NCBI GenBank assembly: GCA_019636285.1
Contig: JAHBXV010000016.1
Span: forward strand, 62,001 to 126,000
Direction of reading: 5' to 3'
Length of the DNA: 64,000 bases
Source: Planctomycetaceae bacterium
GTDB lineage: Bacteria; Planctomycetota; Planctomycetia; Planctomycetales; Planctomycetaceae
Within the stretch, counting starts at the first letter, position 1. Every line of letters starts with the position of its first letter. The notes below the pieces were generated by a model. The model was not told the DNA's origin and did not search any database. It was given only the letters and a program-made list of their open reading frames with translations. Shown here piece after piece: positions 2,182 through 17,673 of this stretch. Made by a program: the position numbers and the translations under genes.

Positions 2182-3021
2182 GTGACGGTCTTCAGCGACC
2201 CGTGGCGGGCTTTGCCGGACGAGGATCATCGCTACACCGTCGGCATTTCGCCGGGCGATGTGGCTGCGTACTTCGCGCCGACGAGCGAATCGGAAGACCT
2301 GCTCGCCGAGCGCGGGCGGTGGCTCGATGAGGATTGCGGGCGGTACTGCGCGCTCGATCCAGCGGGTGAAGAGCTTGTCGGGGCGATGACGGGTTGGTTT
2401 CGCGAGTGGTGCCCGGCCGTTGCTGATGAGCGGTTCGAGGGGTCGCCCCTGGAGAACCTTGCACGGCTGGGGCGGCTTGTTGAGCCGGACTTCGTGCTGC
2501 TGCGGCTGGATGAGGCGGGGCAGCCGATCACGGTGGGGGGCTGTGTCTGCTTTCCGTCGTCGTGGCGATTGACGGACAAGATTGGCCTCGCGCTCGCGGA
2601 CGTTCACGACGTGGTGCCGGGGCTGAATGCCGAGCTGGGGAAGCGGCTTGACAAGCTGGTGCAGAACTTGAAGCCGGCACGGGGGTGGTATCGCTCGAAT
2701 TGGGGGCTGTCGGCGTTTCCGGATCGCAATCAGCATCTCGATCGCGGGTTGCAGGGGCTGACGGGGCCGTTATCGCTGACGGATGTCTGGTTCCGTCGGG
2801 AAGATCAATTGCTGGTGGCGATTCCCGAGACGCGCGGCGTGCTGTTCGGCATTCGCCTGGATGTGCGGCGCGGGGATGAGGTGGCGCGGGATGCCGAGAT
2901 GAGTCGCCGGCTGGCGCGCGGGCTGAGGACCGCGCCGGATGAGCTGTTGGAGTATAAGCGGTTGTTAGCGGTGCGGGGGGAGTTGCTGGAGCTGTTCGAG
3001 GGGAAAGTGATGGGAGAGTAA
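2182..3021 (+). CDS. DUF3445 / heme-dependent oxidative N-demethylase-like protein
   Basis: A 279-residue protein that looks like the DUF3445 (heme-dependent oxidative N-demethylase) family. Recognisable blocks are CFPSSWRLTDKIG (123-135), VHDVVPG (141-147), and late in the protein WFRREDQLLVAIPETRGVLFGIR split around the conserved R-x-x-Q and IPxT elements. Characterised members act on methylated amines using heme; whether this one does is not shown. The GTG start at 2182 has a GGGAG ribosome site about nine bases upstream. A hairpin repeat follows directly and may end transcription. Confidence 0.75.
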   Translation: MTVFSDPWRALPDEDHRYTVGISPGDVAAYFAPTSESEDLLAERGRWLDEDCGRYCALDPAGEELVGAMTGWFREWCPAVADERFEGSPLENLARLGRLVEPDFVLLRLDEAGQPITVGGCVCFPSSWRLTDKIGLALADVHDVVPGLNAELGKRLDKLVQNLKPARGWYRSNWGLSAFPDRNQHLDRGLQGLTGPLSLTDVWFRREDQLLVAIPETRGVLFGIRLDVRRGDEVARDAEMSRRLARGLRTAPDELLEYKRLLAVRGELLELFEGKVMGE

Positions 3022-3082
3022 GTAACCCGAAGCGTCAGCAAGGGATCTTCAATCCGCTCCCTCGCTGACGCTTCGGGTTACT
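3021..3082. repeat. Palindromic repeat family A, copy 1
   Basis: A near-perfect inverted repeat of about 24 bases per arm: AGTAACCCGAAGCGTCAGC on the left and its complement ending in CTTCGGGTTACT on the right, with a short spacer. It lies just after a stop codon, so it can form a hairpin and could act as a terminator or mRNA stabiliser. Related copies are at 26893-26951, 29635-29695 and 59801-59858. Confidence 0.85.
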
Positions 3083-3523
3083 TAAGATGCGGGTACAGCG
3101 AAGGAAGTTTCTGCGACCCCCGCTAGGGGTCGAGGGCCTAAAAAACGTCCGCTTAACCGTGGGTGCGCTGCGCGACCCCCGGCTACCGTCTTCGATGCCT
3201 TCGGCATCGGAGGAGTTGAATGTTACTCGCTGCCGGGTGGAGCTTGGAACAATCGCGTTTTCTTGAGACGGGCGAGCCCTGAAGGCTTGACCGTCAGGCC
3301 AGCTATCAAACTTTCGCTCCGGCCAGGCAAGCTGGCCGGGGGGCGGATCAAGGTGCCGCGTCATGCTAGCTGTCAAACTGCCCCGTACCCACCGGACAAG
3401 CCGGTGGGGGACGCAGCAACGAGGGCGTCGTGTGGCGCTGGATGTGCTTGTGCGGCTTGGCGTATTCCTTAAATACACACTGGCGGAGCCAGTGGCACGC
3501 GAAGACACAGCGATGATATATCG
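3083..3523. other. Gene-free repeat-rich spacer (families D and C)
   Basis: About 440 bases with no convincing gene. It holds a family D block at 3111-3212 (GGTGCGCTGCGCGACCCC, then a GATGCCTTCGGCATC hairpin), two short palindromes (CCGGCCAGGCAAGCTGGCCGG-like near 3321 and CCACCGGACAAGCCGGTGG near 3390), and a family C unit at 3476-3503 (CACTGGCGGAGCCAGTGGCA). Open frames across it translate the repeats into arginine/serine-rich sequence and were discarded. Confidence 0.7.
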
Positions 3524-4084
3524 CTATTTCTTGAGCGGGCCGACGAGTTCGATGAAGTTGCCGTCGGGGTCGCGGAAGGTGGCGAGGCCGACGCCGTCGG
3601 GGAAGCCGGCGGGGAGGGGGACGGCTCCTTTGCTGATCGGCTTCGCGCCGGCGGCTTCTGCCTTGGCGACGCTGGCATTCAGGTCGGTGACGAAGAGCGT
3701 CAGGTAGCGGATGCCGTAGCTGGAGTGGATGAACCGCTGATCGACGCGGGCGCCGGGCGAGGTGGGGAAGGACATCAGCTTGATCTTGGTGGCTGATTCG
3801 TCGCTGCCGAGCGTCATGACGTCGACATGGAATGCGAGGCCGTCGGTCAGGCCGATGTCGGTGGCGAACTCGCCGGGGGCGTCGAAGCCTTCCAGTTGCG
3901 TGCAGCCGAGGACGTCTTTGTAGAAGGCGATCGATTTCTCGGCGTTACTGCAGACGATGCCGAAATCGACGGTTTGACGGGCGAAGGGGGAGGCGGGTTT
4001 GTCGGGGGTTTGAGCGGATCCCCAGAGGACGCCAAAACCGACGAGAGCAGCCGACATCAAACCGAGTTTCAACGCGCGGGGCAT
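3524..4084 (-). CDS. Exported VOC (glyoxalase/bleomycin resistance-like) protein
   Basis: A 186-residue protein with an N-terminal signal peptide (hydrophobic residues 8-22, probable cut near SAQ at 23-25) followed by one vicinal-oxygen-chelate domain. VOC features are the opening strand TVDFGIVCSNAEKSIAFYKD (38-57) and the closing FRDPDGNFIELVG (170-182), where Glu179 would be a metal ligand. VOC members are lyases, isomerases, dioxygenases or resistance proteins; the export signal argues for a periplasmic role, but the substrate is unknown. It is transcribed opposite to the preceding gene and in the same direction as the SDR upstream of it. Confidence 0.85.
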   Translation of the reverse strand: MPRALKLGLMSAALVGFGVLWGSAQTPDKPASPFARQTVDFGIVCSNAEKSIAFYKDVLGCTQLEGFDAPGEFATDIGLTDGLAFHVDVMTLGSDESATKIKLMSFPTSPGARVDQRFIHSSYGIRYLTLFVTDLNASVAKAEAAGAKPISKGAVPLPAGFPDGVGLATFRDPDGNFIELVGPLKK

Positions 4085-4165
4085 GGCAGTCGATCTCCAG
4101 GAATCTTGGACGGATTGTTGAATACGGGTCGTCAGATCAGGGCATGGCCGTGATCGCGCACCAGC

Positions 4166-4939
4166 TTACCGCATCGTGCGGATCGTGGCACCGCCGTCGA
4201 CCACCAGCGTGGAGCCGGTGATGTAGCTGCCGGCATCGCTGGCCAGGAGGAGAGCAGGGCCGGCGAGTTCTTCGGGGTTGCCCCAGCGGCCCAGGGCCGT
4301 CCGCGTGGCAATGGCGGCGCGGGCTTCCTCGGAGAAGAACGACATGGGGAGATCGGTGAGAAACGGGCCGGGGGCGATGCTGTTGACGGTGATGTTGCCG
4401 TGCGGGCCGAGATCGAGAGCCATGGCTCGCGTCATGCCGATGAGGGCGGCCTTGGTGGCGGAATAGAGGCTGCGGCCGGCGGTGGAGGCGAGACCCATGA
4501 CCGACGAGATATGAATAATGCGACCCCAGCCCCGTTCCTTCATGCCAGGGACGACGCCGCGGGACAGAGCCATGCAGGACGAGAGGTTGAGTTCGAGCAG
4601 GCGATCCCAGGTTTCGTCGTCGATCTGGTCGATTTCCTGCGGCGCGTTGGAGCCCGCGTTGTTGACGAGGATATCGATTCCGCCGAGGGCCGTCTCGACT
4701 TCGCGCAGAAGGGGTTCGACCGCCTCGCGCTTCGACAGATCGGCGACCTCCCAGACACCACGACGGTGGGTTCCGGCCAGAATTTCTTCGAGAGCCGATT
4801 CCAGTTCCGCGGCATTGCGGCTGCAAATGGCGATATCGGCTCCATGGAGCGCGAAGGCCCGGGCCATGGCTTTGCCGAGCCCTTTGCTGCCGCCCGTGAT
4901 GAGGGCCCGTTTGCCGGTCAGGGAGAAGGGGGATTGCAT
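4166..4939 (-). CDS. SDR family oxidoreductase
   Basis: A classical short-chain dehydrogenase/reductase of 257 residues. The NAD(P)-binding motif is TGGSKGLG (15-22), the structural motif NNAG (93-96), and the catalytic set Asn118, Ser145/146, Tyr159 and Lys163 (YSATK). The C-terminal VDGG is typical. It resembles the FabG/gluconate 5-dehydrogenase type; substrate unknown. The frame is open further upstream, but the start MQSPFSLTGK was chosen because the family begins about eight residues before TGG and because the upstream sequence translates a simple repeat. Confidence 0.9.
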   Translation of the reverse strand: MQSPFSLTGKRALITGGSKGLGKAMARAFALHGADIAICSRNAAELESALEEILAGTHRRGVWEVADLSKREAVEPLLREVETALGGIDILVNNAGSNAPQEIDQIDDETWDRLLELNLSSCMALSRGVVPGMKERGWGRIIHISSVMGLASTAGRSLYSATKAALIGMTRAMALDLGPHGNITVNSIAPGPFLTDLPMSFFSEEARAAIATRTALGRWGNPEELAGPALLLASDAGSYITGSTLVVDGGATIRTMR

Positions 4940-15100: not shown

Positions 15101-15156
15101 CGACCGAACGACTGCTGCAAATGAAGAAACGCCGCGACGATGACAAGCCTTCGTGA
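12145..15156 (+). CDS. Large VWA / glutamine-amidotransferase-like membrane protein
   Basis: A 1003-residue protein. Two membrane segments at about 24-40 and 52-66 and a third at 88-99 precede a von Willebrand A domain with MIDAS residues DVSDS (117-121). The middle part has a class I glutaminase-like fold signature (GMGFLMVGGENSFGPGGY) without a clear catalytic cysteine, and a second VWA-like segment (HMIIISDGDPQPPPP). A C-terminal membrane helix (FDWFLIALAILLIIDVAV) is followed by a proline/lysine-rich tail. It opens the long MoxR/VWA cluster and overlaps the next possible start, so it is probably cotranscribed with moxR. Related proteins in this phylum occur with MoxR and DUF58; role unknown. 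Confidence 0.87.
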   Translation: MALWRKFLLSIFPRPRRAVRWQDAISLVVFLVLFAAVAIGLEQADVLLFSRPLMLLLVLLAPWVWWMHFAGYGGLPRIRGQMALWTRFLLLGLFAFALAEPRAVRSRDILSVMYVVDVSDSITSASSDQAIQYVTASVNTKPGRDEAGLSIFGKGPAVELPPRASFPFEGVFNSRIDGGATNLEQALSLAAAMLPAENAGRLVLITDGVQTEGSLSRLMDDFRSRNLPVDVLPIDYSYEKEVWLERLELPQQVKLGETYEAATLLSALTPGEGTLVVRENGQVVAELPVSYQAGKNRISIPISLRSPGYYEYTATIETNPTNDSLAQNNTVLNYIFVEGEGRVLLVVDPFGEERDHKKLAEVLRSGERAVDVVNADTFPSDAASLMPYDCVVFVNVPNDQFDAVQLRALRDAVYDLGMGFLMVGGENSFGPGGYQRTVVEDILPVSMDVTQKKVLPKGALALILHTCEFPEGNTYAKRITKEAIKTLSEQDEAGVLAYTENGEEWVFELTPVSQYESMVPKINGALIGDMPSFARTMELGLAGLKKNDASTKHMIIISDGDPQPPPPAMIQEYIDNKISISMVAIFPHGGEDISKMRAIATATGGRYYFPQDPNQLPQIFIKEAKTLRRSMLQQREFTPEIEFPSPILKGIEAMPELKGYVLTTAKDAPAMTVLRVPPDEKEPDQLDPLLAVWQHGLGKTAAWTSDFSANWASNWQNWDRLEAFTKQLVTDISRVRKDGSLRMSTYHTGGEATIVVEDFHPEESFLETQARITGPGDRSETVTLRQVSPRRYQATVPLWGHGRYHVSAQGKGGERTDQVFGGFIVPYSPEYLRLRSDRKTLDDIAERTEGRVLTGDPEKDAIYTTARRPQQSSRPIFDWFLIALAILLIIDVAVRRIQIDADALRSLLFWKRRQGPATATMGTLLQRKQEVSQGLQTRREERVLPTAMQAPAPPRTSVATTPKPVSKTPTPPAAPPKADGDKPMSTTERLLQMKKRRDDDKPS

Positions 15157-15206
15157 TCCGAACCGCGGCTGAACCGTTAATGACCTGGGACCAAGGAATA
15201 CGCGTC

Positions 15207-16217
<1,011 letters not shown>

Positions 16218-16222
16218 AGGTG

Positions 16223-16244
16223 GTTGCGCGCAGAGGCGCGGAGA
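16223..16244. repeat. Left inverted repeat of GxxExxY cassette
   Basis: 22-base arm starting GTTGCGCGCAGAGGCG that is exactly complementary to 16742-16763. Beyond the perfect part the similarity continues loosely (GAGAAAACTAGAGAG against GAGAAAAACCAGAGAG on the other side). Confidence 0.9.
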
Positions 16245-16303
16245 TCGCGGAGGAAGAGGAGAAAAGCGGAGAAAACTAGAGAGAGAAAGCAGGGGGGAAG
16301 CCA

Positions 16304-16720
16304 ATGGCGCCGAATGAGGTTTCTGGGGCGATTATTGATGCTTCAATTCGGATTCATAAGGCTCTTGGGCCGGGGCTTTTGGAGTCGGTTTATCACTTGG
16401 TTTTGATGCACGATCTGGTGGAGAGAGGATTTCGAGTTCGGTCGAAGGAGCCGATTCCTCTGCGATATGAGTCCTTGCAGATTGATAAGGCATTTGAAGC
16501 GGATTTGATTGTTGAAGAGCAGGTGATTGTTGAAATTAAGTCGGTGGAGACGCTTCTTCCGGTTCACTCCAAGCAGTTGCTGACGTACTTGAAACTCACA
16601 AACCTCCATCTGGGGCTCTTGTTGAATTTCAACGCCGCTTATCTGAAAGACGGAATCATTCGTTTGGTCAATCAACTTCCCGAAGTTAACAAAGCGACGT
16701 CTGGAGTCCCCCTCTTCTAA
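16304..16720 (+). CDS. GxxExxY family protein
   Basis: A 138-residue protein with the family-naming motif GLLESVY (G24, E27, Y30), preceded by IDASIRIHKALGPG, and a nuclease-like core FEADLIVEEQVIVEIKSVE (D and E-x-K arrangement similar to PD-(D/E)xK enzymes; this comparison is inference). Molecular function of the family is not established. The gene is richer in A+T than its neighbours, lies between moxR and the DUF58 gene that are normally adjacent, and is bounded by perfect inverted repeats, so it looks like an inserted cassette. Its start is preceded by AGGGGGGAAG. Confidence 0.9.
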   Translation: MAPNEVSGAIIDASIRIHKALGPGLLESVYHLVLMHDLVERGFRVRSKEPIPLRYESLQIDKAFEADLIVEEQVIVEIKSVETLLPVHSKQLLTYLKLTNLHLGLLLNFNAAYLKDGIIRLVNQLPEVNKATSGVPLF

Positions 16721-16741
16721 CTCTCTGGTTTTTCTCTGCGT

Positions 16742-16763
16742 TCTCCGCGCCTCTGCGCGCAAC
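16742..16763. repeat. Right inverted repeat of GxxExxY cassette
   Basis: 22-base arm ending CTCTGCGCGCAAC, the exact reverse complement of 16223-16244; the pair encloses a 541-base unit holding a single gene. Confidence 0.9.
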
Positions 16764-16779
16764 CCTCTTCGAGCCAACC

Positions 16780-17673
16780 ATGACGACCGCTCGGTTCACC
16801 TCCCTCTACGACAATTCCACGCTCGGGCGGATTGAGCGGATGCGGTTGTTGCCGCGTCGACGGCTGACGAATCGGAGTCGAGGCGAGCATCTGGCGGGCA
16901 AGGGGGGGACGAGCACAGAGTTCAACGACTATCGCGACTACGCCGCCGGCGATGACATGCGGTATGTCGACTGGAACATCTTCTCGCGGCTCAATCGTCC
17001 TTACATCAAGCTGTACCGGCATGAAGAGGAGATGCATGTCGTCGTCATGATCGATGCCAGCGCGTCGATGCGGTTTGGCACGAAGCTGGAGCGGGCGCGG
17101 CAGTTGGCCGGGGCGTTGGCGATCATGGGGATGATGAACCTGGAGAAGGTGAGCCTGTATGCCGCACAGGACCGCGAGACGGCTCCGAAAATTCTGCCGC
17201 CCTGCACGGGCCGGATGAGCCTGAAGCGGGTGCTCGACTTTCTGGAAGACCTGCCAGCAGGGCGTGATTACCCGATTGAGCAGGCGGTCGACGCCGTGCT
17301 GAATCAGCATCGCGGCCGGGGGATCGCGATCGTGCTGTCGGACTTTCTGACGTTTGGCGATGTCGATCGGTCCTTCAATCGCCTGTTCAGCGCGGGGCTG
17401 GAGCCGTTCGCCGTGCAGATTCTTTCTCCCGAGGAATTGCAGCCGGACGTGACAGGGGATGTACGGTTCGTCGACGTCGAGACGTCTTACACACTGGATG
17501 TGTCGTCGGCGGGCGATCTGTTGGGTCTGTATCACGAACATTTGTCGGGGTTGCAGGATCGACTGGGAACAGTGTGCCGTCAGCGTGGAGGGCGGTTTCT
17601 GTCGATCAACGCGGCCGATCCGATTGAAACTGTGCTGTTTGACACGCTGCGGCGGAAGGGGTGGGTTCAGTAA
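16780..17673 (+). CDS. DUF58 domain protein
   Basis: A 297-residue DUF58 protein. The signature GDDMRYVDW (57-65) and RPYIKLY (73-79) are followed by a VWA-like core with MIDAS IDASASM (D92, S94, S96). DUF58 proteins are usual partners of MoxR ATPases. It has no membrane segment. It is separated from moxR only by the inverted-repeat cassette and is followed by a BatA-like gene, the standard MoxR-DUF58-BatA order. Confidence 0.95.
   Translation: MTTARFTSLYDNSTLGRIERMRLLPRRRLTNRSRGEHLAGKGGTSTEFNDYRDYAAGDDMRYVDWNIFSRLNRPYIKLYRHEEEMHVVVMIDASASMRFGTKLERARQLAGALAIMGMMNLEKVSLYAAQDRETAPKILPPCTGRMSLKRVLDFLEDLPAGRDYPIEQAVDAVLNQHRGRGIAIVLSDFLTFGDVDRSFNRLFSAGLEPFAVQILSPEELQPDVTGDVRFVDVETSYTLDVSSAGDLLGLYHEHLSGLQDRLGTVCRQRGGRFLSINAADPIETVLFDTLRRKGWVQ

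Follow-up and report, generated by a model that had tools for sequence, protein, structure and literature searches.

Inverted arms of heptamer iterons enclose genes of the GxxExxY family in bacteria of many phyla, and one such unit lies between moxR and a DUF58 gene in the window, a stretch of 64,000 nucleotides from a Planctomycetaceae bacterium. We propose, with a probability of about 0.62, that this unit belongs to a widespread family in which the GxxExxY nuclease recognises the inverted iterons around its gene and disperses gene-less copies of them in trans. If the proposal is correct, a common protein family so far uncharacterised gains a function and a partner, a class of interspersed bacterial repeats is explained, and bacterial genomes have a second, enzymatically unrelated way of retaining gene-less hairpin repeats.

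The unit in the window and its protein

The features of the unit and its two neighbours are as follows (window positions).

15153..16217, plus strand: moxR (AAA_3), host gene upstream, outside the element
16222..16244, plus strand: left arm, perfect core of 23 nucleotides, with a weak extension to 16216-16262
16229..16235, plus strand: left iteron 1, CGCAGAG
16237..16243, plus strand: left iteron 2, CGCGGAG
16246..16252, plus strand: left iteron 3, CGCGGAG
16304..16720, plus strand: GxxExxY gene, 138 amino acids, PF13366/TIGR04256, predicted PD-(D/E)XK fold
16322..16327, plus strand: codons of residues S7-G8, the strongest covariation with iteron base 5
16734..16740, minus strand: right iteron 3, CGCAGAG
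16742..16764, minus strand: right arm, perfect core of 23 nucleotides, with a weak extension to 16724-16770
16743..16749, minus strand: right iteron 2, CGCGGAG
16751..16757, minus strand: right iteron 1, CGCAGAG
16780..17673, plus strand: DUF58, host gene downstream, outside the element

The initial annotation had described perfect inverted arms of 22 bases. The arms are indeed exact reverse complements of each other, but their length is 23 bases, and the weaker similarity that was noted beyond them extends over 47 nucleotides at 83% identity. Each arm contains three direct heptamer iterons, oriented inward. The unit has an inverted-repeat score of 27.5; ten shuffles of one flank reached 12 at most. 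A chance inverted repeat is ruled out by the shuffles together with the excess of arms over same-locus control positions given below. The gene is richer in A+T than its surroundings, as had been stated (47.5% GC versus 61.3% in moxR and 60.9% in DUF58), and the gene order bears out that it separates these two neighbours. An overlapping antisense frame of 144 codons is also present in the unit. No direct repeat suggestive of a target-site duplication was seen beside the unit; the empty sites are too diverged for a comparison at base level. Rfam gave no match here up to E 0.1.

The protein passes the curated cut-offs of both PF13366 (3.3e-38, 131.1 bits versus a cut-off of 22) and TIGR04256 (1e-38, 132.3 bits versus 35), which places it in the GxxExxY/PDDEXK_3 family. 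Glu27, Tyr30, Asp67, Glu77 and Lys79 are invariant in an alignment of 30 sequences, and the motif D-x(6-14)-E-x-K was found in 195 of 197 loci. An AlphaFold2 model from the 30 aligned members has a mean pLDDT of 92.6. Its closest solved fold is SSO0001 (pdb entry 4ic1; Z 9.7 over 111 residues, rmsd 7.3), which we take to be Cas4-like, followed by restriction-endonuclease-like proteins (Z 8.5 and 8.2) and Hjc (1gef, Z 7.3). The model thus displays the PD-(D/E)XK core fold with its D...ExK residues. Since only five rows reach Z ≥ 8 and Foldseek alone returned no row at E ≤ 0.001 for the model, Pfam and the conserved residues carry most of the weight of the fold assignment. The nuclease-like core that had been suspected agrees with the invariant Asp67, Glu77 and Lys79, and the protein is probably an active nuclease.

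PF13366 was the sole family found in the protein; no transposase family was detected, and a family search showed no HUH/Y1 transposase domain. A sequence search of the PDB gave a single match at E 0.42, and there was a weak match to phrog_1706 (1.8e-4). With the window protein as single query at E 1e-5, a search that distant members could escape, none of 50,697 phage records and 5 of 72,556 plasmids were matched.

Iteron arms around GxxExxY genes

PF13366 occurs in 59 of the 99 genomes searched, the window's own counted, with 0 to 8 copies each. In and near the window's genome, inverted arms with a score of at least 14 surround 65 of 81 GxxExxY genes versus 6 of 151 control positions from the same loci; at a score of at least 18 the counts are 51 of 81 versus 1 of 151. 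These 81 loci are the window and 80 others selected manually among the higher-ranking of more than 150 listed matches, in roughly ranked order with some skipped, and the 80 overlap largely with 31 loci read earlier. Across many phyla, arms of score 14 or more were found around 60 of 80 GxxExxY genes (the best 80 of 582 loci) versus 2 of 127 controls. The recurrence of this pairing in many bacteria, with joint changes of protein and word (see below), suggests mobile DNA of a little-noticed kind. The iteron words include CACGGAG, CACGAAG, CGCAAAG, CGCAGAG, CGCCAAG, CACAGAT and others, usually the same in both arms, and one genome (G036) contains elements with several different words.

Two departures from this arrangement were seen. 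At L108, L117 and L118 arms occur in both orientations on at least one side of the gene, as if the gene adjoined or sat between compact gene-less inverted units. At L125, L135 and L157 the arms are built on an ACAGGAT- or AGGAT-like word outside the heptamer scheme.

Within a locus the two arms agree. Of 47 orthologous, Sphingomonas-type loci, 45 have the same bases at positions 5-6 of the left and right iterons, and 37 do so over positions 4-6. Iteron identity is 0.945 between the arms of one locus versus 0.856 between left arms of different loci, and none of 2000 shuffles reached the observed within-locus value. Arms could stay alike through hairpin-based template switching, and such hairpin-based mutation could by itself be the source of this agreement.

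The iteron word also varies together with the protein. For iteron base 5, which is A or G, the highest shuffle-corrected mutual information belongs to residue 8 (0.49 bits) and residue 7 (0.46 bits, numbering of the window protein), and the next-best column reaches 0.12 bits. The set comprises the 166 of 202 loci with readable heptamers; 36 loci, among them those with ACAGGAT-like arms, were left out, and a few distant members were lost because a pattern served as reading-frame anchor. Ala at residue 7 goes with base A (48 of 49) and Thr with base G (33 of 34), and Ser occurs with both (49 G and 19 A of 69). At residue 8, Gly is found with base G in 50 of 50 cases and Lys with base A in 26 of 27; Ser, Thr, Ala and Tyr are mixed. 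The window, with S7-G8 and CGC[A/G]GAG, conforms.

This covariation is not confined to one lineage. On a tree built without columns 7 and 8, whose branches are poorly supported, the protein being so short, base 5 requires at least 27 changes. Among 27 independent pairs, Ala at residue 7 gave 12.3 concordant, 0 discordant and 14.7 uninformative, with the same outcome for Gly at residue 8. The starred branches yield 6 independent pairs, of which 3.1 are concordant and 0 discordant, too few for significance. Other columns lean likewise: residue 103 by 11.3 to 0, residue 9 by 12.4 to 2.1 and residue 83 by 12.2 to 1.9. The pairing of residues and word may amount to a protein-DNA code in this nuclease, which is about 130 residues long.

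Gene-less units and empty sites

The GxxExxY gene occurs once in the window's genome, but arm-like sequences were found at about ten further places. At least two of these are compact gene-less pairs, on contig 26 (108 bases) and contig 23 (about 176 bases); the remaining ones are wider pairs or lone arms. The contig 26 unit folds as a hairpin (z -8.7), and all four gene-less units that were folded, one from this genome and three from Sphingomonas, were more stable than each of 200 shuffles. Two wider pairs enclose other sequence. On contig 59 (L024, ~2310-4395) two inverted arm copies lie about 2 kb apart around other genes, and the frame beside them reads by eye as metG. On contig 36 (L027, ~1252-1808) an arm pair about 550 bases apart surrounds a small unrelated open frame, and an additional arm begins immediately past the right one.

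In Sphingomonas, gene-less arrays depend on the presence of the gene. PF13366 was found in 50 of 101 genomes, with a single match in 46 of the 50. Carriers show a median of 52.5 matches to three patterns, genomes lacking the gene a median of 1 (each match is a pair of iterons, so that one arm may yield two); at least 10 matches occur in 44 of 50 versus 3 of 51. The difference is visible with each pattern singly. With one pattern alone, at least 5 matches were counted in 37 of 50 versus 1 of 51 genomes, and its reversed control gave 0 to 3; the reversed controls of the other two are raised in carriers because they match the arrays of 8-base period themselves. Across 16 independent pairs of genomes with and without the gene, placed on a host tree of fabD-fabG from 88 genomes, the carrier has more arrays in 13.7, fewer in 0.5 and equally many in 1.8.

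Exceptions exist on both sides. Six carriers have fewer than 10 matches (G108, G115, G126, G161, G172 and G175); in G108 and G175 the iteron words lie outside the patterns, and in G115, G126 and G172 the gene is at another place. Three genomes in which no PF13366 gene was found have 19 to 54 matches (G124, G135 and G193). In G124 the fabG contig is cut exactly there, and G193 has kept a gene fragment at fabD-fabG (L277). Genomes with one gene contain arrays of several words, and the match between array word and resident protein is modest: the AGA fraction is 0.22 in 11 genomes versus 0.05 in 31 (p 0.0025) and the GAA fraction 0.26 in 17 versus 0.15 in 25 (p 0.015), with kinship ignored in both tests.

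Twenty gene-less units were read, all chosen as close inverted pairs; a single genome (G201) supplied 17. Measured from one outer pattern end to the other they are 119 to 263 bases long, and 16 of them fall between 119 and 167. Some gene-less units lie at operon junctions, and several of the twenty are nested. In nested units (L361, L363, L366-L368, L372 and hisA-hisF loci among L381-L402) one word stands outside and another inside; in some cases several species share the inner position but differ in the word found there. For five Sphingomonas loci Rfam returned eight matches, all to microRNA models below their own cut-offs.

Given that the residues covary with the word and that presence of the gene predicts gene-less arrays, we read the gene as the enzyme of the element itself and the gene-less units as the non-autonomous form. 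To the initial annotation the unit had looked like a small non-autonomous mobile cassette carrying cargo; a small repeat-bounded cassette it is, but for the gene the role of enzyme is likelier than that of cargo. Arms that occur at random without the gene had been named as evidence against such a cassette. Arms without the gene do exist, but in Sphingomonas their pattern is tied to its presence.

Occupied and empty sites were compared at several junctions. The patchy presence that had been expected at moxR-DUF58 was found: tblastn detected no GxxExxY gene in the 10 gaps of relatives examined, so that an old membership in this operon is ruled out for these relatives. Some of the gaps contain other hairpins, and one (L068) shows, by eye, an iteron-like direct repeat. 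G015 and G036 differ in having a GxxExxY gene immediately downstream of DUF58, not between it and moxR. Of the 81 GxxExxY domains, 7 have a moxR or DUF58 homologue no more than 500 bp away (the window, L169, L126, L141, L152, L098 and L133), with the element between the two genes in three of the seven loci. Since the residue 7-8 pairs differ among these loci, this type of operon has seemingly been hit more than once. In G001 (L067) the DUF58 orthologue is closely preceded by a broken GxxExxY gene that has iteron-like arms and may be the same insertion (39% identity); another gene replaces moxR.

The fabD-fabG junction was compared in 95 loci. Ninety are from Sphingomonas; the other 5 came out of separate searches, and two of them likewise belong to genomes of the Sphingomonas set. 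A GxxExxY match is present in 50, two of them degenerate or partial (L277 and L283), and absent from 45, where the gap is at most 46 bases in 32. Arm remnants without the gene persist in at least two loci (L279 and L355), and in L319, L321 and L338 fabG has no neighbouring fabD. At hisA-hisF (the best 30 of 100 hisF loci by similarity to G201) a unit follows the hisA stop codon in 16 of 24 species with the gene versus 0 of 6 lacking it, one of the six being without a hisA match. Another gene-less unit lies between two genes that read by eye as glyQ and glyS. Terminal inverted repeats with occupied and unoccupied sites, as used to recognise insertion sequences and MITEs, are therefore present.

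Mechanism, rival readings and related systems

In the proposed mechanism the stand-alone PD-(D/E)XK nuclease would bind the heptamer iterons of the arms around its own gene and cut at or near them, and this cutting would lead to copying or moving of units. By acting on paired arms anywhere in the same genome, the protein may disperse gene-less arm pairs, i.e. long hairpins, in trans, partly into gaps between operon genes, by analogy with the RAYT enzyme that is thought to spread REPINs. No excised or circular form and no fresh insertion of a unit was seen. We also lean, if only slightly, towards a wider view: GxxExxY genes with iteron arms would form a phylum-spanning minimal mobile DNA, convergent with RAYT/REPIN, in which two residues of the first helix read base 5 and joint changes of protein and word give rise to new repeat families.

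The strongest competing reading, which we nevertheless consider improbable, assigns the spread of the hairpins to other means such as template switching, slippage or another transposase. GxxExxY would then bind and process the hairpins so that the cell tolerates them, and arrays would last only where the gene is present. An undamaged match lies beside fabG in 46 of the 50 Sphingomonas carriers, judged by coordinates; the gene-bearing copy thus seems seldom to move there. Such a fixed site fits a caretaking role, as do the purifying selection on the gene at fabD-fabG (median dN/dS 0.11 in 31 pairs that are not mutually independent), which also fits our own proposal, and structural neighbours that include Holliday-junction resolvase and Cas4-like nucleases. 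A caretaker, however, leaves unexplained why gene-less units of one architecture occur at many separate sites and why arms enclose the gene itself in many phyla.

Slightly less probable still is that the units are ordinary MITE-type elements moved by a separate transposase, with GxxExxY as passenger or accessory. MITEs commonly have inverted ends, gene-less copies and an intergenic location, and the units resemble them in being short and gene-less and in occupying a given site in some species and not in others. But a passenger has no reason to follow the iteron word in its residues, and GxxExxY presence predicts arrays in independent pairs. Moreover, no second frame of a known family was seen in the window unit, the frame tested being that of GxxExxY. 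In comparison with known MITEs, no target duplication was identified for the units, and the linked gene is nuclease-like, with no transposase family found in it. Very improbable, finally, is a reading in which the iterons serve the gene and operon junctions as operators or mRNA-processing hairpins and the protein is a regulator or RNase of benefit to the host: units do lie between a stop and the next start at moxR-DUF58, fabD-fabG, hisA-hisF and, by eye, glyQ-glyS, but the fabD-fabG and hisA-hisF sites are often empty, units are nested, and arms stand on both sides of the gene.

Among known systems, RAYT/TnpA-REP with its REPINs is the closest to the element that we propose. In the parts of the literature consulted (PMC3116915, PMC3733652, PMC8266576), the enzyme gene lies near or is flanked by its repeats, REPINs are extragenic gene-less inverted doublets with predicted hairpins, and enzyme and repeat are said to co-evolve. 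The GxxExxY units share the enzyme gene between inverted repeats, the gene-less hairpin doublets and, apparently, the co-evolving specificity, a correspondence of organisation only. They differ in that GxxExxY has the PD-(D/E)XK fold instead of that of an HUH/tyrosine enzyme and in their ends of about three direct heptamers per arm. In TIRYT/TIRtrons, relatives of RAYT flanked by terminal inverted repeats, the enzyme gene likewise lies between such repeats, some of which are dispersed; their enzymes, in contrast, are of the tyrosine/HUH type, and the sections consulted describe no iteron word matched to protein residues (PMC3733652).

A likeness to Cas4-family nucleases is seen in the top solved fold, in the weak phrog_1706 match of the window protein and in the PADLOC Cas4 model, which 3 of 30 members match (best 7.5e-5); the window protein itself gave no match in PADLOC. 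Cas4 has the four conserved cysteines of an Fe-S module according to the sections consulted of PMC5704561, where the terms searched did not bring up the GxxExxY family. The window protein, by contrast, contains no cysteine and thus lacks this module, and it has inverted iterons of its own. In open-access PubMed Central we found neither GxxExxY genes with iteron arms nor a relevant paper on the iteron words. A GxxExxY/PDDEXK_3 domain is described, in the part consulted of PMC8934634, beside a reverse transcriptase where cas4 would be expected.
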